From: a virus
Length of the DNA stretch: 64,000 nt
IMG/VR virus record: IMGVR_UViG_3300030106_006270
Coordinates: 17,828 to 81,827 of that record
Reading direction: 5' to 3' (one strand)
Below the pieces are notes generated by a model, which saw only the letters and a list, made by a program, of their open reading frames with translations, had not been told where the DNA came from and made no database searches. The position numbers and the translations under genes are program-made. Below, one piece after another: positions 11,107 through 23,594 of this stretch (within the stretch, counting starts at the first letter, position 1; the number at the start of each line of letters is the position of its first letter).

Positions 11107-11718
11107 TTAAACTTTTTTCAATTTAAGTTTTAACTGAGATATGTAACCATCTATTTTTTTAATGTCTTTATGGTCGTCTGGCATTTTTTCTCTTCTTAAA
11201 ATTAATTTACCTAATGCTTTTTGTATGTCTAATTTTGCTAAACCTTTCATACTTTTTCTGTAATATAAATGTTCTAATGCTTCGTCTTCTGCTTCTGCTC
11301 CACGAACACCAGCAACAGCCGTTATGTATTCTGTTTCATAAACTTCAGCATCAGCTATACTTTCTATTTCGTTCCAAACTGTATTTTCCCACATAGCATC
11401 TAAGTCTAAATCTTCAAGTGGTTCAGCTAATTCTTTTTCTTTAGCTAATCTTTCCTCTTCTTGTTTCTTTTTTCTTTTGATGGCGAACTCAGCATCATAG
11501 TATGTAGTTGATAAAGAATCACATTCACTTAACCATTGACCGTAATTCTTCCAATTAGGTCTACCATTAGAATTTCTATATTCGGTATCATCACATTCAG
11601 TTCCCATAAATGAAGATGTTTTAAATTCTGATACACGTGTTACATCTTGACTATAGCTTAGTTGGATGTTCAGACAAATAAAAAGTATTAGGGTTGTATT
11701 CAAAATACCAAATTTCAT
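11107..11718 (-). CDS. Secreted protein with charged helical C-terminal region
   Basis: 203 residues with a clear signal peptide (about 1-23, MKFGILNTTLILFICLN then SYS before QDV). A short region with two Cys (GTECDD, SECDS), perhaps a disulfide, is followed by a long helical, Glu/Lys-rich part. Its start overlaps the end of a prepilin-like gene by 68 bases, so it belongs to the same operon. It could be an accessory periplasmic or surface factor for the pilin-like proteins. No family is recognised. Confidence 0.6.
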   Translation of the reverse strand: MKFGILNTTLILFICLNIQLSYSQDVTRVSEFKTSSFMGTECDDTEYRNSNGRPNWKNYGQWLSECDSLSTTYYDAEFAIKRKKKQEEERLAKEKELAEPLEDLDLDAMWENTVWNEIESIADAEVYETEYITAVAGVRGAEAEDEALEHLYYRKSMKGLAKLDIQKALGKLILRREKMPDDHKDIKKIDGYISQLKLKLKKV

Positions 11719-12046
11719 TATTCATTCTCCTATGATATAGTTTAGTTCCATCAAATTGCCATTCATTATCTTCATCTGGTAATCCCAAATCAAAAGTAAC
11801 AATGACACCTCTCGTACGACCTAATACTAAAAGTGGATGTTCAGGCCAACTTTCAATACCTGTTAATTCTTTTTGTTTCTCAGAGTATATTTCTAACTCT
11901 TCCCAAATTTTGTATGTAAAATCTTTTTCGAATTTTAGCTCTTCTAATTCAATTCTTTTTTCAAATCTTGGTATAGATACAACACTCAAAATTCCAATCA
12001 ATAAAATCACTATAACTAATTCAATCATAGTGTAGCCTTTACTCAT
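11651..12046 (-). CDS. Prepilin-like protein 4
   Basis: 131 residues. The N-terminus MSKGYTMIELVIVILLIGIL has the class III prepilin signature: short basic leader, Gly just before the cleavage site, Glu at mature position 5, then a roughly 20-residue hydrophobic helix. Phe at +1 is replaced by Tyr. The rest is a small soluble domain (WPEHPLLVLGRTRG, DNEWQFDGTKLYH) related in pattern to that of the protein at 12504-12935 (SWPDHPFAALDQ, GEWTYNTTTNKITHQR), so the two are probably paralogues. Processing would require a host prepilin peptidase, PilD. Confidence 0.8.
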   Translation of the reverse strand: MSKGYTMIELVIVILLIGILSVVSIPRFEKRIELEELKFEKDFTYKIWEELEIYSEKQKELTGIESWPEHPLLVLGRTRGVIVTFDLGLPDEDNEWQFDGTKLYHRRMNNEIWYFEYNPNTFYLSEHPTKL

Positions 12047-12492
12047 TAGATTTCTCCGATTACATATTCCTCATATGATGGACTATCTTCATCCACATCA
12101 CTAATGATAAATAGTTTAGTTATATATCCTTGTGAAGAAGTATCAGATTTTATTTCATATTTAAATGGATTTCTGTTAGAGTTGAGCGGTAGATCTCCAC
12201 TAAACAAATGATTAGGAGTTCTACCATCAGAGAGTATTAACTCAAAATAATCTTCATCTAATAAATTGTTTTCTGGCTCAGTTGGAAGCTGTGGATTACC
12301 TTTCATATGAGTTTCTTGATAATATCTTAAAAATGAATCTTTTATGATTGACATATTAGCAAGGTTGATTTGCTTTTGGGTATCCATAGTTAAATTACTA
12401 AAAGTGGGAATAGCAAATGACATCACTACTCCCACCAAAGCAATACTAACTACTAACTCCGCCAATGTGAAACCAGCATTTGAGTTTCTCAT
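12046..12492 (-). CDS. Prepilin-like protein 3
   Basis: 148 residues, N-terminus NAGFTLAELVVSIALVGVV: Gly-Phe cleavage site, Glu at +5 and a hydrophobic alpha-1 helix. The soluble part (about 35-148) has no recognised family and ends in alternating strands (YITKLFIISDVDED). The stop is adjacent to the start of the next prepilin gene (both at 12046), typical of an operon. Confidence 0.82.
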   Translation of the reverse strand: MRNSNAGFTLAELVVSIALVGVVMSFAIPTFSNLTMDTQKQINLANMSIIKDSFLRYYQETHMKGNPQLPTEPENNLLDEDYFELILSDGRTPNHLFSGDLPLNSNRNPFKYEIKSDTSSQGYITKLFIISDVDEDSPSYEEYVIGEI

Positions 12493-12503
12493 TGGTTTCT
12501 CCT

Positions 12504-12935
12504 TTAATCTACGATAGCTTCTCTAGCACCAATTGAACCAACACCAGCATTATCGCCTGATTGAACTCCTTTGTCGTATGCCCAAGCATAACGAGAGTTA
12601 TCTTTTCGTTGGTGTGTGATTTTGTTAGTTGTGGTATTGTATGTCCACTCACCATCGGTATCAGCATTATCAACATCTGTTGAATCATATCCAACTGGCA
12701 CCTGATCTAAAGCAGCAAAAGGATGGTCAGGCCAACTCTTTCTACCGTTATCAAGAAGTTGTTCAACAGCGTAATTTTCTAAACCAGCTTTCACAGAAGA
12801 AATTATTGCATTTTCAGCAGCTTCTTCAGCTTTGTCTACCACACCAACATATCTTGGTATGGCTACGGCTGCAAGAATTCCTAAAATGATAGTAACCATT
12901 ATTAGTTCTATTAATGTGAATCCTTTGTTGTTCAT
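12504..12935 (-). CDS. Prepilin-like protein 2
   Basis: 143 residues. MNNKGFTLIELIMVTIILGI is a textbook type IV pilin/pseudopilin N-terminus (G|FTLIE). The mature helix runs into AAVAIPRYVGVVDKAEEAAE, as in major pilins and GspG-like pseudopilins. The globular domain has no Cys pair. It could form a thin filament or cap by itself or join a host pilus. Confidence 0.88.
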   Translation of the reverse strand: MNNKGFTLIELIMVTIILGILAAVAIPRYVGVVDKAEEAAENAIISSVKAGLENYAVEQLLDNGRKSWPDHPFAALDQVPVGYDSTDVDNADTDGEWTYNTTTNKITHQRKDNSRYAWAYDKGVQSGDNAGVGSIGAREAIVD

Positions 12936-12953: not shown

Positions 12954-13592
12954 CTAAGGTTGTAATTTCTTGTTAAAGTTCTTTGGACTTTCCAAATCTG
13001 CAATATAAAGAATTGGAGAATAGGATTGTTGTCCACTTCCACCACCAGCAATTACTGTGTAGATATAGTGACCATCCTGAAAAGGTGATTTGATAGCATT
13101 ACCACCAAACTCATTTAAGAACTCTTCAGCACCAGCTGAAACATCAAATGAACCATCAGCATCATCATCTTCTGATACATTTACAGAAGAACCTTGAGGT
13201 GCTGGTGACTCTAAATTGTCAGTTCCAAACACAGAAGCCCATTGTGATGCCTCTTCACTTTCATAAGTTTCGAATACATCGATACTTGAGAGAAGTAAAT
13301 CTTCGTTAGCATATCCACCATTATTATCAGGCACACTTTCGTTATACTTTACCTGACCAGGAAATCTACCACGACCTTCTGATGTTACTTTAGCGTTATA
13401 AAAATTGTTAGCTGATTTCATTATCTTATCGATATCAGCTAATGTTTTTTTCTCCTTTGCACCCTCTCCAACTCCTGAAAATTTAGGTGCGGCAGTTGTA
13501 GCAAGTGTAGCCATCATAGCAGTTGTTACTGCAAATTCGGCAAGTGACTGCCCACTTCTACCCTTTAGATGTTTTTTTATTGATTTGAACAT
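12954..13592 (-). CDS. Pilin-like protein 1, larger
   Basis: The start is set at MFKSIKKHLKGRSGQSLAEF (13592), with AAGGAGAACACA in front, giving 212 residues. The N-terminus has a basic leader, SGQS as a possible processing site, Glu at +5 and a short hydrophobic helix (AVTTAMMATLATTAAPKFSG). This resembles Flp/TadE-type or divergent prepilins more than classical ones. The rest is acidic, with a Gly/Ser/Asp-rich loop (VSEDDDADGSFDVSAG). It heads the four-gene pilin block, followed in order by 12504, 12046 and 11651. An operator-like dyad and a promoter region lie upstream. Confidence 0.68.
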   Translation of the reverse strand: MFKSIKKHLKGRSGQSLAEFAVTTAMMATLATTAAPKFSGVGEGAKEKKTLADIDKIMKSANNFYNAKVTSEGRGRFPGQVKYNESVPDNNGGYANEDLLLSSIDVFETYESEEASQWASVFGTDNLESPAPQGSSVNVSEDDDADGSFDVSAGAEEFLNEFGGNAIKSPFQDGHYIYTVIAGGGSGQQSYSPILYIADLESPKNFNKKLQP

Positions 13593-13810: not shown

Positions 13811-14143
13811 CTAAATACCACCTCTTATATTGTGTTGTGCTTTAGTATATCTTTTATCTCCGATAGTAGATGAATCCGCCATTACATTGATTTCATTTGG
13901 TGTTTGAAATCCTTTTTGAATACCAGCTTTTTTTAATCTATTACTCACCATATCGGTTAAATCACCCTTGCCTTCAGGATTCTTCTTTTCGAAATAATCT
14001 CTACCTAAAGCTATAGTTAATCTATCCTCATCATCCAAATGAATTGTAGCTCGAACTGGCACACCCTTTAAGGCTTTCACTACTTTATCAAATAGTTTCT
14101 TATCTGCTTTCTTTTCAACTATCAAATCTTTTAATTTAATCAT
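13811..14143 (-). CDS. Probable head-associated protein with targeting-like N-terminus
   Basis: 110 residues. It begins MIKLKDLIVEKKADKKLFDK. The first ten residues match a motif shared by at least five neighbouring proteins, and LIVE fits the [LI]-x-E cleavage rule of T4-type prohead proteases. The rest is a small, mostly basic domain. Its start overlaps the end of the next gene upstream by 8 bases. It is likely a small internal virion protein, inferred from the motif and context only. Confidence 0.6.
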   Translation of the reverse strand: MIKLKDLIVEKKADKKLFDKVVKALKGVPVRATIHLDDEDRLTIALGRDYFEKKNPEGKGDLTDMVSNRLKKAGIQKGFQTPNEINVMADSSTIGDKRYTKAQHNIRGGI

Positions 14144-14372
14144 TTCTCATACCCTTTATATCCTGATAAGACTTACTCTTAGAAACCATTCTCCTTACCA
14201 TCATAGATTGTTTTTCTAAAGTATTGGAAATTAGTCTTTCTTGTGGTGCATGTTTTTTAAACAAATCAGATAAGTCTTCCAACGAGTCTACAGCAGATTG
14301 ATATACATCTTCAATTGTATCAGACCTTTTTGATACATATCTTTCATTTAGTAATTCTTTCAACTTTATCAT
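14136..14372 (-). CDS. Probable head-associated protein with targeting-like N-terminus
   Basis: 78 residues starting MIKLKELLNERYVSKRSD, nearly the same N-terminus as the gene at 13811-14143, again with an L-x-E site (LLNE). The remainder is helical and charged. An ATGA overlap joins it to the upstream gene. Confidence 0.6.
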   Translation of the reverse strand: MIKLKELLNERYVSKRSDTIEDVYQSAVDSLEDLSDLFKKHAPQERLISNTLEKQSMMVRRMVSKSKSYQDIKGMRND

Positions 14373-14671
14373 TGTGATTTATCATCTAGTCCATCTTTTC
14401 CATCAAAGTAATTGTAAACACTTTGTAAGTAATCCATAGACTTAGTGAGTTTAGATTGAACCCAAGCCGGCATTTGAACCTCACCGCCATCACCAACATT
14501 GTCAACTATTTTATAAATCATTTTTGCGTATTTCATAGAACGCTCTAACTGTGACTTTGCCATTTGCCCTTCATGGTCACTAGCCTCATTGACTTTGAAC
14601 GGTGGTTTATCTTTATCAGTGTAGACTTTACCTAACTGTATATCTTTCAACATATCTGTGAGCTTTACCAT
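14369..14671 (-). CDS. Probable head-associated protein with targeting-like N-terminus
   Basis: The start is set at the ATG (14671) overlapping the stop of the preceding gene, in place of an upstream TTG. The 100-residue protein begins MVKLTDMLKDIQLGKVYTDK, a variant of the shared N-terminus, and has a VNEAS site near residue 33. The remainder is helical (MKYAKMIYKIVDNVGDGG). Virion location is an inference. Confidence 0.6.
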   Translation of the reverse strand: MVKLTDMLKDIQLGKVYTDKDKPPFKVNEASDHEGQMAKSQLERSMKYAKMIYKIVDNVGDGGEVQMPAWVQSKLTKSMDYLQSVYNYFDGKDGLDDKSQ

Positions 14672-16110
14672 TTTCTGCAACTCCAATATCTAGCCTTATG
14701 TCTTGGTCCTGGATTATCACAGTTGTGTCTAGCTCTAAATGATTTACGAGCTTTAGGATTTGATTTCCTAATTCTCATCGTTCCGCCTTTAGCATCACCG
14801 CCTTGTCCAAAGTTTACTTTCACGACATTACCTTTTGGATTCTTTACATATACTTTGAACTTCTTTGTGTCACCTTGCATTATCTTACCTAACTTTACTT
14901 TCCTACCTTGGTATTCTGCTTCATTGAGTTTTAGGTCTTTTATGTGTTCGAATGTGTAACCATGCCCTTCACCGTTTTGCTCATAATATATCTCAATAAT
15001 TTCTTTGACACAATTCGGAACCATCTTACCACCTTTTTTCTTCATACCTAACTGTTGATATCCTACCCAACAGGTTCCTCTGGCTTCATTTACGGATTCA
15101 AATACAATGGGCAAATAAACAGATCGTTTACCTACTTTTGTTAAGATATGGTCTACACCCTTTATGCGCTTTTTATCGTAATCTGGTCTTTTTTTGTATT
15201 GGGATTTTGTCATAACTACTCCACCTATCCCATACTTTTTTGTCTTATCTTTGGTTACTTTTATTGGCTTACCTTTTCTGTTTTTTCCTATAACAATATA
15301 GTCATTTTTCTTTTCACTCAAAGATTCTTTTACCATATCAAAAGGAAATGATGGTGTCTGTGACATCTTCAAACCTCTTCTCTTACGATAATAAGTTTTT
15401 CCTTTATCTGAATACCATATAACTTTTTTACCTTTATTAGAACCCGATACAAATCTTCCACTAACTCTTAAATCGTTTTTACTTAGTATCACATACCTAC
15501 CATATTTACCGAAATCAAGAGTTCCACTTTTCGGTACATCATTCCATTTCTTTATGGCTTCATTTACGGATTCCATTTTAGCAGATAAAGCAGATATAAT
15601 TTCAGCTTTTTTAGAATTTGATGCGTTCTTATACATCTTATTTACTTTGTTGTAAAGTTTTTCAACATCACTTTTCGCATCTTGTGGATTGTTGCCTCTT
15701 TTGATTAGAAGTTTTAGAACCTTTGCCTTATCTTCATTTATAGATTCTTCTCTGTTCTTCTTAATACTTTTCTTTAAGTCTTTTGGTAAGGCTTTCAAAT
15801 CATCCAAACCTTCTTTCTTAGATTTGTTTCCCCAATTTTTTGCACCAACTTTTCTACACTTTACCAAAGCACCACTGGCATAAGCTGATGGCCAGACATC
15901 GTAACGAGCTTTCACTTTATGATAGCAAGCATCTTTCTTACCTGCAGCTTCATCGAACTGTTCTTCTGTAAGTCTTTTACCAACTAACTCTTCTAACTTT
16001 GAACTCATTACGTTCTCCTTCTTCTTTCTTCCAGCACAATGTGCTTTTTGACTAAATCCTTTTGGGTTATTACAATCGATACTTCGTTTGTACTTCTTAC
16101 TCCAACCCAT
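14665..16110 (-). CDS. Large basic protein with repeated E-S-[VI]-N-E motifs, candidate processed head protein
   Basis: 481 residues, strongly Lys/Arg-rich. The N-terminus GWSKKYKRSIDCNNPKGFSQ and the C-terminus (SFRARHNCDNPGPRHKARYW, then SCRKW) are Cys/His-containing modules that I recall from hypothetical proteins of marine T4-like phages. Between them, separate small basic domains are punctuated by ESINED, ESVNEA, ESLSEK, ESVNEA and KLNEAE. These resemble the L/I/V-x-E sites of prohead protease substrates. A module KARYDVWPSAYASGALVKCR occurs near residue 68. The pattern suggests a polyprotein cut into DNA-binding internal head peptides. No enzyme motif is seen. Confidence 0.65.
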   Translation of the reverse strand: MGWSKKYKRSIDCNNPKGFSQKAHCAGRKKKENVMSSKLEELVGKRLTEEQFDEAAGKKDACYHKVKARYDVWPSAYASGALVKCRKVGAKNWGNKSKKEGLDDLKALPKDLKKSIKKNREESINEDKAKVLKLLIKRGNNPQDAKSDVEKLYNKVNKMYKNASNSKKAEIISALSAKMESVNEAIKKWNDVPKSGTLDFGKYGRYVILSKNDLRVSGRFVSGSNKGKKVIWYSDKGKTYYRKRRGLKMSQTPSFPFDMVKESLSEKKNDYIVIGKNRKGKPIKVTKDKTKKYGIGGVVMTKSQYKKRPDYDKKRIKGVDHILTKVGKRSVYLPIVFESVNEARGTCWVGYQQLGMKKKGGKMVPNCVKEIIEIYYEQNGEGHGYTFEHIKDLKLNEAEYQGRKVKLGKIMQGDTKKFKVYVKNPKGNVVKVNFGQGGDAKGGTMRIRKSNPKARKSFRARHNCDNPGPRHKARYWSCRKW

Positions 16111-16691
16111 TACTTTTTAGGTTTAGTAGAAACTCTTATTGGGGCTTTACCTTGTCCTGCAGATTGTTTACCCCCTCTACCAGCTTTATTCTGTGCTGCT
16201 CTCTTTCTACGAGTAGCACTTGCCTTCTGTTTCTTTGTCATACGAGCAGCTTTACTTGCTGGTACACATTTTGCATATCCTCTCTTCTTACCGCTCGTAC
16301 CACACGGTGGATGTCCACCACCTTTCTTTTTCTTTCCAATATTAACCCATCTATCTTTGAACCACTTTCTTAAATTTTCATTTGCAAAATCACCACAATT
16401 CTCACATATGTTATCCATAATTTTGCCAGCTTGTTCCAAAGTCATTGTAGTATCGACTCCTTCTTTCTTTACACAATTCCTATATCTCTTACCGAACATA
16501 ATCTTTGTCTTACGAGTAGGATGTGTCATATATCCTTTTTGACAAGCTTCGTCTAAATCAAATTTTTTCTTAGATTTCAACAACTCCTTTTTCTTCTTCA
16601 TAAGATTAGGACCTGCTGGCTCTTCACCTAGCTTACCATCTATACCATACCCACAGGTTCCCTCTTTTAATATTTCGTATAATACTTTCAT
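16110..16691 (-). CDS. Basic Cys-containing protein, candidate head-associated protein
   Basis: 193 residues. It starts MKVLYEILKEGTCGYGIDGK, where ILKE may be a processing site. The central NLRKWFKDRWVNIGKKKKGG and HPPCGTSGKKRGYAKCVPAS are, from memory, typical of a protein family common in marine myoviruses. The C-terminal 50 residues are nearly all Lys, Arg, Ala and Gly. It abuts the start of the 481-residue gene. Function unknown, with DNA condensation possible. Confidence 0.62.
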   Translation of the reverse strand: MKVLYEILKEGTCGYGIDGKLGEEPAGPNLMKKKKELLKSKKKFDLDEACQKGYMTHPTRKTKIMFGKRYRNCVKKEGVDTTMTLEQAGKIMDNICENCGDFANENLRKWFKDRWVNIGKKKKGGGHPPCGTSGKKRGYAKCVPASKAARMTKKQKASATRRKRAAQNKAGRGGKQSAGQGKAPIRVSTKPKK

Positions 16692-16694
16692 CTT

Positions 16695-17351
16695 TTATTT
16701 TGCAAGTTGTTTAGCCATATTTTGAAATTTAACTTTGAATTCGATTATATGTTTTTTGAATAAAGAAGCTAATTGTAATGATTCTTTTTTCAATCCATCT
16801 TTACCCAAATCCACAATCATCTGTTTTACATTTTTTTCCAATCTATCAGTATTATCATTTACATTTGATACATATCCTCTGAAATATCTTGGTATTTGTT
16901 CATTTACAGATTCAGGTATATTAGTTTTCATAATCTTCGCTATCTTCTTAGCAGCTTCAGGTGTAAGTTTTAAGAAATTAGTCTTACCTTTACTACTTTT
17001 AATCTGTAATGTTAAATCCTCACCTTTTAATTGATTCATAATTTGTTTTTCTTCGTATGAACCCTCATTTACAGATTCGTTCAAATCCTTTAACATATAC
17101 TTTAATTGTAATTGCATATAACTTGCAACCTCAAGAAAATCTTCTTCATTTTGTACCCGATGATATTTCTGTAGATTTTTTACTTCTCTAGCAAGAATCG
17201 AAATATACTTTTTAGACATATTCCAACCCTTTGGAGATACAGCTTCATCAACTTCTGTTTCTAAGTAAGACTGATACTTCTTCTTTCTACGCAAAAGGTC
17301 TATTTTGTTTATTTCTTGTAATGCTTTTGATTCTTTAATTACTTTCTTCAT
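16695..17351 (-). CDS. Protein with ESVNE sites, candidate processed head protein
   Basis: 218 residues. The N-terminus is MKKVIKESKALQEINKIDLL. Further sites are TEVDEAVS, ESVNEG and ESVNEQ, with the ESVNE parts encoded near 17060-17080 and 16895-16915. The DNA around these (TCATTTAC[AG]GATTC on the plus strand) is almost identical to the repeats in the 481-residue gene, pointing to shared origin or recombination. The segments between sites are helical and charged. Confidence 0.6.
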   Translation of the reverse strand: MKKVIKESKALQEINKIDLLRRKKKYQSYLETEVDEAVSPKGWNMSKKYISILAREVKNLQKYHRVQNEEDFLEVASYMQLQLKYMLKDLNESVNEGSYEEKQIMNQLKGEDLTLQIKSSKGKTNFLKLTPEAAKKIAKIMKTNIPESVNEQIPRYFRGYVSNVNDNTDRLEKNVKQMIVDLGKDGLKKESLQLASLFKKHIIEFKVKFQNMAKQLAK

Positions 17352-17361
17352 AGTATATTCC

Positions 17362-17649
17362 TTAGTATGCCTGATATATATCTTGGTAATTACTGTACTT
17401 TCTTTCCGCTGCAGTCATCAACATCTTATCTAATTTTTGTCTAGCTGCCATCATTTCATTCATTTGTCTAAACATATCGTGTAAAACCATAATAGCTTCA
17501 TACCCCTTTACCAAATTTTTTAAACCCATTTGTTTAGCTAAGACTAATCTGGCTTCATTATGATTATTGTAATCAGTAAGTTTGGCAATTTTATCCACCA
17601 CATTTTGTGGTAACTCTTGTTTTTCTAATAGTAAACTTTTTAACTTCAA
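17362..17649 (-). CDS. Probable head-associated protein with targeting-like N-terminus
   Basis: 95 residues starting MKLKSLLLEKQELPQNVVDK, with LLLE as possible cleavage site. The body is helical and Met-rich (MVLHDMFRQMNEMMAARQ). It lies between the ESVNE protein and the holin-like gene. Confidence 0.6.
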   Translation of the reverse strand: MKLKSLLLEKQELPQNVVDKIAKLTDYNNHNEARLVLAKQMGLKNLVKGYEAIMVLHDMFRQMNEMMAARQKLDKMLMTAAERKYSNYQDIYQAY

Positions 17650-18216: not shown

Positions 18217-18591
18217 CTAATAAGAATCACTTGCTAAAGCATCTTCTATCGCACTTTTTATATCATCAGCAGAACAATCTATTTCACCATCCATATCCGC
18301 CTTCCAAGTATCAACTTTATCTCCATTATGAAATAAAGCAATAGATGGATAATTTCTTACTCTTAATTTTTTACAAACCTTTTTCAAATCAGCAGATTTA
18401 ACTGTTACTATTTGGGCATCCTCAAATCCATTTACTCCTTTTAGTATTGAATCATCTAAATCCCTTTCCTGCCATTCAGAGGTAAATACAACCACATAAA
18501 ATCCATCACCTATCTCACTTTTAAAATTTTTGTCATTTATCTGTGCAGTTGTAATTGTTAATAAAAGTAAAGATAAAAATAATTTTTTCAT
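18217..18591 (-). CDS. Secreted thioredoxin-fold protein lacking the CxxC motif
   Basis: The start is placed at MKKLFLSLLLLTITTAQIND (18591) because AGGAG lies 8 bases upstream and a signal peptide then sits at the N-terminus. 124 residues. The fold is visible in YVVVFTSEWQERDLDD, IVTVKSADLKKVCKKLRV and the cis-Pro loop RNYPSIALFHNGDKVD. The usual W-C-x-x-C is replaced by E-W-Q-E-R, so it cannot be a dithiol oxidoreductase. It may be a structural or redox-inactive periplasmic protein. Confidence 0.7.
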   Translation of the reverse strand: MKKLFLSLLLLTITTAQINDKNFKSEIGDGFYVVVFTSEWQERDLDDSILKGVNGFEDAQIVTVKSADLKKVCKKLRVRNYPSIALFHNGDKVDTWKADMDGEIDCSADDIKSAIEDALASDSY

Positions 18592-18601
18592 AACAAAGCT
18601 C

Positions 18602-19204
18602 CTACTTATCCCTTTTTCTACGTTCAAGGTCTTTAATATCTTTCTGTAATTCTTTTATGGTTTCTTCTAATTCATCCACCATATCTAAAACATCATCCAT
18701 ATCCTTTTGAAGACCACCAACTTGAGTTTTATATTGTTCAAAAGATCTTGGCCAATTATGCCCCTCAGGTTTAGATGGATACTCTGCTTCGTACAAACTC
18801 TCTAAACTTGGAAGTTGTTTTGCTTCCTCAATTTCTCCTTGTAATGTATACCACATACCAATTAAAGAAGCAAGACCAGTTCCTGCGGCTACCATAGTCT
18901 GTACTGATAAAGTAAATTTGGTATCTAATACTTTATCTTCACTCAATTCAATTGGCTCTTTTTTCTTAGATTTATTTTTCTCAACCTTCTCCTTAATTTC
19001 GTCTTGTTTTTCCTCATGTCCATTTCCGTGTTCTAATATAACATCAGTTATATCTTCAAGACTACAAAAGCCTTTGTCTACAAGTATTTCGCCAATAGTT
19101 CTCTTGTCACCTTTTACCTGAGCCTGTAAGACTTGATTGAGTTGTCTTCTAGTGATGATATCTTCATCACAAAGTAATCTTCCTATTTTGACATCACCGT
19201 TCAT
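18602..19204 (-). CDS. MshEN/GspE-N-domain-like protein with membrane segment and coiled coil
   Basis: 200 residues. Residues about 5-55 (KIGRLLCDEDIITRRQLNQV, then TIGEILVDKGFCSLEDITDV) follow the pattern of the N-terminal domain of type II secretion/type IV pilus ATPases (MshEN), which in some members binds cyclic di-GMP. The ATPase domain is absent. A Lys/Glu linker, a hydrophobic segment at about 102-122 and an acidic coiled coil ending ERRKRDK follow. In the same phage as four prepilin-like proteins, it might act on a host pilus machine. That is an inference. Confidence 0.6.
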   Translation of the reverse strand: MNGDVKIGRLLCDEDIITRRQLNQVLQAQVKGDKRTIGEILVDKGFCSLEDITDVILEHGNGHEEKQDEIKEKVEKNKSKKKEPIELSEDKVLDTKFTLSVQTMVAAGTGLASLIGMWYTLQGEIEEAKQLPSLESLYEAEYPSKPEGHNWPRSFEQYKTQVGGLQKDMDDVLDMVDELEETIKELQKDIKDLERRKRDK

Positions 19205-22728: not shown

Positions 22729-22975
22729 TTTTAGACTCCAATATTTCACCTAATTGAATGGCATACTTACCATTATCAATATCAATACCTTTATATTCAA
22801 CAACCATTTCAGGTGCTACCTTAGCGTATCCATTACGAAATTTTATCACATCGTAATATCTACCCTCTAGTCTTTTAGACCAATATGGCGTGATATCTCT
22901 GTATTCAATTGTCTTAGTTCCTTTAAGAATTGCATCGAAATACTTTCGATATAAATTAAGATGTAAAACCCTCAT
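22718..22975 (-). CDS. ASCH-domain protein
   Basis: 85 residues. LHLNLYRKYFDAILKGTKTI followed by EYRDITPYW and YDVIKFRNGY match the start of the ASCH/PUA-like fold, where the basic and aromatic residues line a nucleic-acid cleft, and YAIQLGEIL closes it. ASCH proteins bind RNA or nucleosides, and some have ribonuclease or amidohydrolase activity. The gene overlaps the PAP2 gene. Confidence 0.78.
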   Translation of the reverse strand: MRVLHLNLYRKYFDAILKGTKTIEYRDITPYWSKRLEGRYYDVIKFRNGYAKVAPEMVVEYKGIDIDNGKYAIQLGEILESKNVT

Positions 22976-23594
22976 TTTTTCTTATACTAAATAAATACTC
23001 AGCAACAACTTTACCAAAACTTTTATCCGATGGATAATGTGCCTTAGCTAAAATTCTTGATTGGGCAATATCTTCTCCTAACTGATTAAATACTTTTCTA
23101 CTTTGTGGATACTTATCTGCAAAATACATACCTAATAAATATCCTTGTATGGCGTGTCCGCTTGGATAGGATGGAGTCTTCATCGTATCTAACTCAACAC
23201 CATTTAAATTTATACCATAGAACTCAGCAATCTGATGAGGTCTTGGTCTGTTGTACTTATATTTCAATTCCATGACAAACTTCGCCGATTGTTTTAAAAG
23301 AGAGTCTAACTCCTCTTCTATGTAAGGTAGTTCCAACTCTGCTAAAGTATTTTTAAATACTTCTTTTATGTCATCATGCATTTCGACAAACTTTTTATTT
23401 TGTCTGATACTTGCTAAATGCTTGATTTCACTCAAAGTTGTTGCACTACTATTTTCGGGAGGTAACTGATTCGGTAATGCGTACTCGTTCTCAAAGAGAG
23501 TGAGCGGCGTCATCATTCTTTTTTTATGTCTGCCCTTCGGACCCGAATTATAAGTCATCTTATTAAGCGCTAATAAGTCTGTTAGTTTAATCAA
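22956..23594 (-). CDS. PAP2-family acid phosphatase with phage targeting-like N-terminus
   Basis: 212 residues. All three catalytic motifs are present: KYKYNRPRP (KX6RP), PSYPSGH (PSGH) and SRILAKAHYPSD (SRX5HX3D). The protein has no obvious membrane segments, so it resembles a soluble class A nonspecific acid phosphatase. The N-terminus MIKLTDLLALNKMTYNSG matches the shared N-terminal motif of the head-associated proteins at 13.8-17.6 kb, so the enzyme may be packaged in the virion. Substrates could be nucleotides or lipid phosphates. Confidence 0.85.
   Translation of the reverse strand: MIKLTDLLALNKMTYNSGPKGRHKKRMMTPLTLFENEYALPNQLPPENSSATTLSEIKHLASIRQNKKFVEMHDDIKEVFKNTLAELELPYIEEELDSLLKQSAKFVMELKYKYNRPRPHQIAEFYGINLNGVELDTMKTPSYPSGHAIQGYLLGMYFADKYPQSRKVFNQLGEDIAQSRILAKAHYPSDKSFGKVVAEYLFSIRKNEGFTS

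Follow-up and report, generated by a model that had tools for sequence, protein, structure and literature searches.

The window is a 64,000-nucleotide stretch (bases 17828-81827) of a linear IMG/VR record (contig) from an uncultured marine bacterial virus, 95,890 bases long, on which genes for T4-type baseplate wedge proteins, a DNA polymerase, a ribonucleotide reductase and a replicative helicase were observed. Our analysis centers on a cassette of seven minus-strand open reading frames (ORFs) at 13811-17649, overlapping or nearly touching, whose proteins either start alike or are divided internally by repeated ESVNE sites. The seven are as follows, with a slash marking a predicted cut or boundary:

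13811-14143, minus strand: basic ORF of 110 amino acids (aa), isoelectric point (pI) 9.7, with the capsid-targeting-like N-terminus MIKLKDLIVE/KKAD (E10)
14136-14372, minus strand: 78-aa ORF, pI 9.0, N-terminus MIKLKELLNE/RYVS
14369-14671, minus strand: 100-aa ORF, N-terminus MVKLTDMLKD (D10), followed by FKVNE/AS
14665-16110, minus strand: 481-aa basic multi-module protein (probably 447 aa, start at 16008)
16110-16691, minus strand: 193-aa basic ORF, N-terminus MKVLYEILKE/GTCGYG, further boundaries FDLDE/ACQKGYM and FANE/NLRKWF, weak DUF5872 match
16695-17351, minus strand: 218-aa basic ORF of shuffled modules, EVDE/AVSPKGW, ESVNE/GSYE and ESVNE/QIPR
17362-17649, minus strand: 95-aa ORF, TTG start, N-terminus MKLKSLLLE/KQEL

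The 16110-16691 ORF was entered by hand, the automatic caller having chosen an overlapping plus-strand ORF instead. The true start of the 481-aa ORF is probably an internal ATG with an AAGGAG box, giving a 447-aa protein beginning MSSKLEELVGK that matches its homologues. No Pfam family scored above cut-off for any of the seven, which gave sub-threshold matches only; the array modules hit PHROG families that lack a known function, and pieces of different families tile the 481-aa ORF. Relatives of the 218-aa ORF were scarce, turning up in 2 of 26 pattern stretches.

Five of the seven ORFs start alike (MIKLKDLIVE, MIKLKELLNE, MVKLTDMLKD, MKVLYEILKE and MKLKSLLLE). We described this start by the T4 spacing, with hydrophobic residues at positions 4, 7 and 8 and E at 10, give or take one residue. 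The motif was found in 4 of 7 cassette ORFs versus 2 of the 142 other minus-strand ORFs of the contig (Fisher test, 2.6e-5) and, when E or D was accepted, in 5 of 7 versus 4 of 142 (4.4e-6). An earlier, sequence-only reading had pointed to a shared N-terminal motif at this cluster, which these counts confirm; it overlooked MKVLYEILKE (16110-16691), and of the N-termini it listed for 13811-17351 the first three lie there, with MKLKSLLLE (17362-17649) just outside and a PAP2 phosphatase (22956-23594) outside. In a set of 893 non-redundant proteins, drawn from the window genome and 100 related loci, some of which share a record, 73 carried the motif. A gene-calling artefact was rejected as the origin of the shared start because homologues retain it, and chance was rejected as the origin of the motif and of ESVNE by the motif and shuffling counts.

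Position by position, the window N-termini fit the capsid-targeting sequence of T4 IPIII, in which residues 4 and 7 drive targeting and residues 8 and 10 processing, and in which Asp at position 10 blocks processing and leaves targeting intact (PMC9026906). MVKLTDMLKD carries an Asp at position 10, which is kept in a relative (L216, MKLQDIIKD). Together with the ESVNE and LxE sites, which fit the gp21 rule, this correspondence supports the likeness to T4 capsid-targeting sequences and prohead protease cleavage proposed from the sequence. In a T4 control (159 of 169 kb, 269 called ORFs) the pattern picked seven proteins, namely IPII, IPIII, Alt, gp24, 61.1, gp2 and rnh, the first four of which are known gp21 substrates; IPI, gp67, gp68, gp22 and gp21 were overlooked. 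As a separate observation, T4 gene 61.1 (T4 record 18966-19130) starts with a clean targeting motif, MKTFKEFIKE, and is a candidate unrecognised T4 internal protein, and T4 gp2 starts MAIFQIINE.

A similar start opens an enzyme elsewhere in the window:

22956-23594, minus strand: 212-aa PAP2-superfamily phosphatase (4e-10), TTG start, N-terminus MIKLTDLLAL (MIKLTDLLALNK), targeting-like residues, no E10

Among 22 relatives (17 of them distinct) the PAP2 start shows good conservation, residue 10 being L or I and never E (0 of 17 distinct homologues), and in the related record G028 the gene adjoins the cassette. The suggestion that this enzyme shares the motif holds for the targeting-like residues and fails for the terminal Glu. 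Because the cleavage Glu is absent in 17 of 17 homologues, only targeting and not processing is suggested, and PAP2 may be targeted yet untrimmed at residue 10, like the T4 D10 variants. That the start also opens an enzyme lacking E10, and is rich in Lys and Leu, could instead point to a start that is amphipathic or binds membranes, or to a bias at translation starts, with no connection to the head. However, the spacing equals that of T4 IPIII, and the motif marks published virion proteins of cyanophage S-CREM2 as well as virion cytidylyltransferases of S-SM1 and S-SZBM1 (see below); we give an origin of this kind very little credence.

Five ES[VI]NE sites occur among the 161 called ORFs of the contig (0.065 expected by shuffling), three within the 14665-16110 ORF and two within 16695-17351, and the DNA pattern GAATC[CT][GA]TAAATGA is present in exactly five copies in the contig, solely at these sites. 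The near-identical DNA around ESVNE sites in two basic proteins, as originally described, is thereby verified. The sites, with the boundary preceding the C-terminal module of the 481-aa ORF, are:

15733-15747, minus strand: seam ESINE (GAATCTATAAATGAA)
15559-15573, minus strand: seam ESVNE (GAATCCGTAAATGAA)
15085-15099, minus strand: seam ESVNE (GAATCCGTAAATGAA)
17064-17078, minus strand: seam ESVNE (GAATCTGTAAATGAG)
16899-16913, minus strand: seam ESVNE (GAATCTGTAAATGAA)
14920-14934, minus strand: LKLNE before the C-terminal AEYQG module

ESVNE was the commonest pentapeptide of the 893-protein set, in which 45 ES[VI]NE sites were observed in 25 proteins versus 0.4 expected by shuffling; the residue that follows was A in 12, G in 11 (A/G at 23 of 45), N in 5, S in 4 and another in 13. 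Over the 94 sites that remained after fuzzy removal of homologous contexts, the 15-nucleotide seam had a mean nucleotide identity of 0.869, compared with 0.781 from local codon use (200 trials, maximum 0.804). Two forms were found, one group of loci having GAATCAGTAAACGAA at 36 of 53 sites and the other having GAATC[CT]GTAAATGAA at 20 of 41; because the groups were defined by the Asn codon, only the other positions are informative within them. The Ser codon was the clearest of these, with TCA at 44 of 53 (0.36 expected) and TCT or TCC at 36 of 41 in the other group (0.32 expected). Flanks were near background, apart from the base that opens the following codon in one of the groups. This likeness fits recent copying, and the linker may be a recombination joint; selection on the seam DNA for some other reason is possible. 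Since its conservation extends to the DNA and is not confined to the peptide, the linker is probably also a seam for the gain, loss and swapping of modules. The excess identity, the Ser codon bias and the unconserved flanks would also suit a DNA element that came first, as a recombination or mobility seam with the peptide as by-product and no protease role. In contrast, other boundary linkers (LNE, INE, LTE, IKE etc.) keep the peptide rule only, as do the capsid, scaffold and protease genes, and a seam devoid of a protease role appears quite improbable to us, while the two roles can be true together.

The earlier description of ESVNE and LxE sites as module separators was borne out, since the sites fall on module boundaries. 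Predicted cuts in the 14665-16110 ORF (FDE/AAGKK, ESINE/DKAK, ESVNE/AIKK, SLSE/KKND, ESVNE/ARGT and KLNE/AEYQ) delimit fragments of 54-84 aa, and BLAST blocks in this ORF start at ESINE, ESVNE and KESLSE, just before FESVNE and at DLKLNE, with a few others starting elsewhere. Among ESVNE proteins, 40 of 59 homology-block starts had [LIVM]xE no more than 8 residues away (0.337 at random). Across all loci the same was true of 202 of 403 block starts (0.301 for randomly chosen places in these proteins); for block ends the count was 150 of 369 (0.285 at random). In 86 of 87 distinct fused proteins, [LIVM]xE stood before the C-terminal AEYQG module. When similar upstream contexts of this boundary were removed, 26 were left, in which P1 was E in all 26 and P3 was L in 17, I in 5, V in 2, M in 1 and T in 1 (L/I in 22), with P2 variable and P4-P10 drifting. 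Because P1 is invariant and P3 almost always L, I, V or M while P2 and P4-P10 drift, the pattern argues for a protease signature rather than linker composition.

Modules were also observed in differing combinations. In close relatives the ends of the array are alike and the middle differs; the interval from KKDACY to RGTCW is empty in L003 (KESVEE/ARGTCW) and is filled differently in the window, G028 and G027, each with its own set of inserts flanked by x-[VI]-x-E seams (inserts delimited by eye). In the window GTCGYG comes after the N-terminal MKVLYEILKE, and in L095 it comes after GKVNE within a 696-aa protein. A module resembling nucleotidyltransferases (PF01467 in L095 and L094) stands behind ISPFLTE at the N-terminus in L008 and behind VNE, ISE or IKE at internal positions elsewhere, and a zeta-toxin-like kinase domain follows MIKLKDLLPE/G in L021 and LVNE/G in L099. 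Three zeta-toxin/AAA_33-like kinases were seen to start with a targeting motif (L021:1532-2272, MIKLKDLLPE; L038:3989-4753, MVNLKQLLTE; L215:4184-4960, MIKLKQLLTE), the family being matched for the first two. Giant arrays of 1046-1373 aa (L095:13559-16699, L094:3632-7033, L100:5598-9719) have [LIV]xE sites between domains and hold a cytidylyltransferase-like domain, a ligase-like EKLDGxN motif and an HEIDH motif, the last two recognised by eye.

A prohead protease, for which a search had been advised, gave no match on this 95.9-kb contig and was found near the same families in relatives. Two sets of related records matched PF03420, in 10 of 26 and in 8 of 20 (18 of 46). Its distance from the modules, worked out by hand from coordinates, was about 4-14 kb for the ten matches of the first set; for the eight of the second set it was 4-27 kb in seven and about 80 kb in the remaining one. 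The protease gene in L095 adjoins the 696-aa array and homologues of window ORFs, and in L216 the cassette lies between gp21, at 1710-2336, and the scaffold and capsid genes (gp22/gp23) and includes MKLQDIIKDIELGKVYTDKDKPPFKVNE, a homologue of the 14369-14671 ORF. An ORF starting MKLIDLLLEKK, downstream of gp21 in L094 and L102, resembles the 17362-17649 ORF by eye. At positions matching T4, with sites assigned by eye, the relatives carry QLVKE/A, QLIDE/S, QLLDE/A and QLISE/A in capsid homologues, VISE/G, IISE/E, VIEE/G and VINE/S in scaffold homologues, and INE/S, LNE/A and others in protease homologues. As an observation in its own right, G000, G027 and G028 (94-126 kb) contain the cassette and gave no gp21 or gp23 match; their head genes may lie in a separately assembling part.

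Nine isolate genomes, a small set chosen by BLAST matches, were compared for the arrangement of the modules. In six isolates bearing PF03420 (C48C1, S-CREM2, S-SZBM1, S-SM1, P-SSM2 and S-B43) the modules are fused or stand behind a targeting motif, whereas in Kolga, CRP-902 and HTVC027P, which gave no PF03420 match, they are single-domain ORFs of 32-92 aa starting at the predicted cut, for example M/AKYQGRTVKL versus KLNE/AEYQGRKVKL in the window. The P-SSM2 and S-B43 counterparts sit among head genes and hold no ESVNE.

Published virion proteomes include proteins of this kind. The S-CREM2 virion proteome comprises 52 proteins (PMC10665884, Table 3), among them ORF160 (KKDACYHKVKARY) with 7 unique peptides (PMC10665884), which holds the KKDACYHKVKARYDVWPSAYASGALVKC module after ETEISE/G together with DWF and CWPGYEKKG (CW-GY) modules. 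Motif starts (9-11 residues) were found in 8 of 217 tested S-CREM2 ORFs (219 in total), such as ORF136 (MQTFSMFFSE) and the cytidylyltransferase ORF154 (MKNFSSFLTE/A), and 5 of these 8 are virion proteins versus 52 of 217 overall (Fisher test, 0.021). For motifs of exactly 10 residues, a subset picked afterwards, the count was 5 of 6 (P 0.0033). We also observed that published S-CREM2 (L224) virion proteins with a motif start include an S-adenosylmethionine (SAM) hydrolase (ORF6), ORF13 and a kinase (ORF14), and that ORF12, a Cas9-like virion protein, has ASFMAE/A slightly further in. The S-SZBM1 virion list contains S-SZBM1_139 and the cytidylyltransferase S-SZBM1_140 (PMC9146016), the former carrying a CWKGY module and the latter starting MRFRQFIIE/A. 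The S-SM1 cytidylyltransferase T4-GC190, detected in virions (PMC3037559), starts MKKFSAFLNE/A, and all six further cyanophage homologues examined start with such a motif. The idea that such proteins, an enzyme included, are packaged is upheld to the extent that published virions hold module proteins and motif-bearing cytidylyltransferases, in other phages.

Detection in virions does not demonstrate cleavage, and the arrays might be packaged uncut, as beads-on-a-string virion proteins (core, neck or DNA-binding) in which [LIV]xE marks flexible joints and only short N-terminal propeptides are processed. In keeping with this, the cleavages identified in SPN3US, in the portion of the published work available, all give N-terminal propeptides, self-cleavage of the protease apart. 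The AEYQG boundary, with Glu at P1 in every context and L, I, V or M at P3 in 25 of 26, speaks against uncut arrays, as does the encoding of modules as separate genes in isolates without a detected S77 protease, and we regard such packaging as unlikely.

We consider it probable (roughly 0.8) that the genes of this cluster specify internal head proteins of a T4-like marine phage, in which capsid targeting and processing of the T4-like kind have been extended into cargo arrays resembling polyproteins. Data back the motif and its spacing, the module boundaries, the gp21/gp22/gp23 synteny in relatives and the published virion mass spectrometry of module-sharing proteins in isolates; we infer the rest, namely cleavage and ejection (by analogy with T4), the functions of the modules and a protease in a missing part of the genome. 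In single-domain members, the 9-10-residue targeting sequence, with its hydrophobic residues at 4, 7 and 8 and its Glu at 10, would dock the protein in the prohead core, and a gp21-type (S77) prohead protease would then cut after Glu. The two longer genes would encode arrays whose modules are small (about 55-85 aa) and for the most part basic, with [LIV]-x-E linkers between them that are ESVNE in most cases. Cutting of these arrays by the same protease would yield a set of small DNA-compatible proteins. The released small, mostly basic domains would stay in the head with the DNA and enter the host at infection. Linker DNA would act as the joint at which modules are added, dropped and exchanged, and the reshuffled cargo would probably be delivered together with the DNA.

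Several observations weigh against this interpretation. The 14665 and 16695 array ORFs lack the strict N-terminal motif, and S-CREM2 ORF160 and S-SZBM1_139 do not start with it either, so targeting of the arrays needs another signal; the missing Glu of PAP2 was noted above. Homologues of the gp21 protease (PF03420), the gp23 capsid protein (PF07068), portal, terminase and scaffold were searched for across the 95.9-kb record and none were found, so the record is either incomplete or has unrecognisable head genes, and the near relatives G027 and G028 yielded no capsid gene or protease. Other boundaries were less regular than AEYQG, with [LIVM]xE no more than 4 residues before KKDACY in 8 of 37 internal cases (FDE/A dominating), at the RGTCW boundary in 25 of 34 and at NLRKWF in 31 of 57. 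An initial boundary comparison based on ORFs with a targeting motif yielded a weak result (11 of 31 versus 0.148 at random), being blurred by multi-domain matches. Three of the eight motif ORFs of S-CREM2 are not virion proteins, and no report of cleavage or of cut termini was found in the published sources consulted. AlphaFold2 on the 481-aa ORF (5 sequences) was uninformative (mean predicted local distance difference test score, pLDDT, 37.6).

The neighboring genes include, directly downstream of the cassette at 11651-12935 (minus strand) together with 12954-13592, three ORFs with a type IV prepilin N-methylation motif (PF07963; 1.9e-7, 8.8e-7 and 2e-4) and a fourth ORF that is pilin-like by eye, an unusual group for a phage. 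Just upstream, at 18217-18591 (minus strand), lies a secreted-looking thioredoxin (PF00085, 6.7e-7), with a similar neighbor (by eye) in L102.

If the proposed system is real, dozens of families now labelled 'hypothetical' in abundant marine phages turn into candidates for injection, and sequence alone would suffice to list them, as whatever follows a targeting motif or sits between [LIV]xE seams. It would account for how enzymes such as cytidylyltransferase get into cyanophage virions, and would make the long-open question of non-DNA phage injection directly testable in cultured cyanophages. More tentatively, marine T4-like phages may possess a cargo-shuffling engine in which the 15-bp in-frame ESVNE element is both prohead-protease site and recombination seam, so that a new effector or enzyme module inserted into a packaged polyprotein could come free as a separate injected protein, with no need of new signals for regulation or targeting.

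The kind of system is already known, as T4 capsid targeting and gp21. Our literature search found no description of module arrays cut at repeated sites, nor of a seam conserved as DNA. The gp21-processed T4 proteins IPI, IPII, IPIII and Alt resemble the cassette in the 10-residue N-terminus, hydrophobic positions 4, 7 and 8, E10, the L/I-x-E rule, small basic cargo and the D10 variant. The cassette differs from them in having several small genes plus multi-module arrays, repeated internal sites, V or M accepted at P3, a linker homogenised as DNA and, in this contig, a cluster away from head genes. The ejection proteins of phiKZ and SPN3US are similar in that many packaged proteins are processed by a gp21-related prohead protease. 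They differ in their other motif and long propeptides, and the available portions of the work on these phages report no module arrays. The T4 core proteins gp22, gp67 and gp68 likewise have many [LI]xE sites in one protein, and their pieces are mostly removed after gp21 cutting (PMC9026906), whereas those of the window are domains that are shared and reshuffled and that have genes of their own elsewhere. The S-CREM2 paper (PMC10665884) makes no mention of capsid targeting, cleavage or propeptide; the virion enzymes of S-SM1, S-SZBM1 and S-CREM2 (cytidylyltransferase/NMNAT-like proteins, kinases and SAM hydrolase) are alike in that several begin with the same N-terminal motif.

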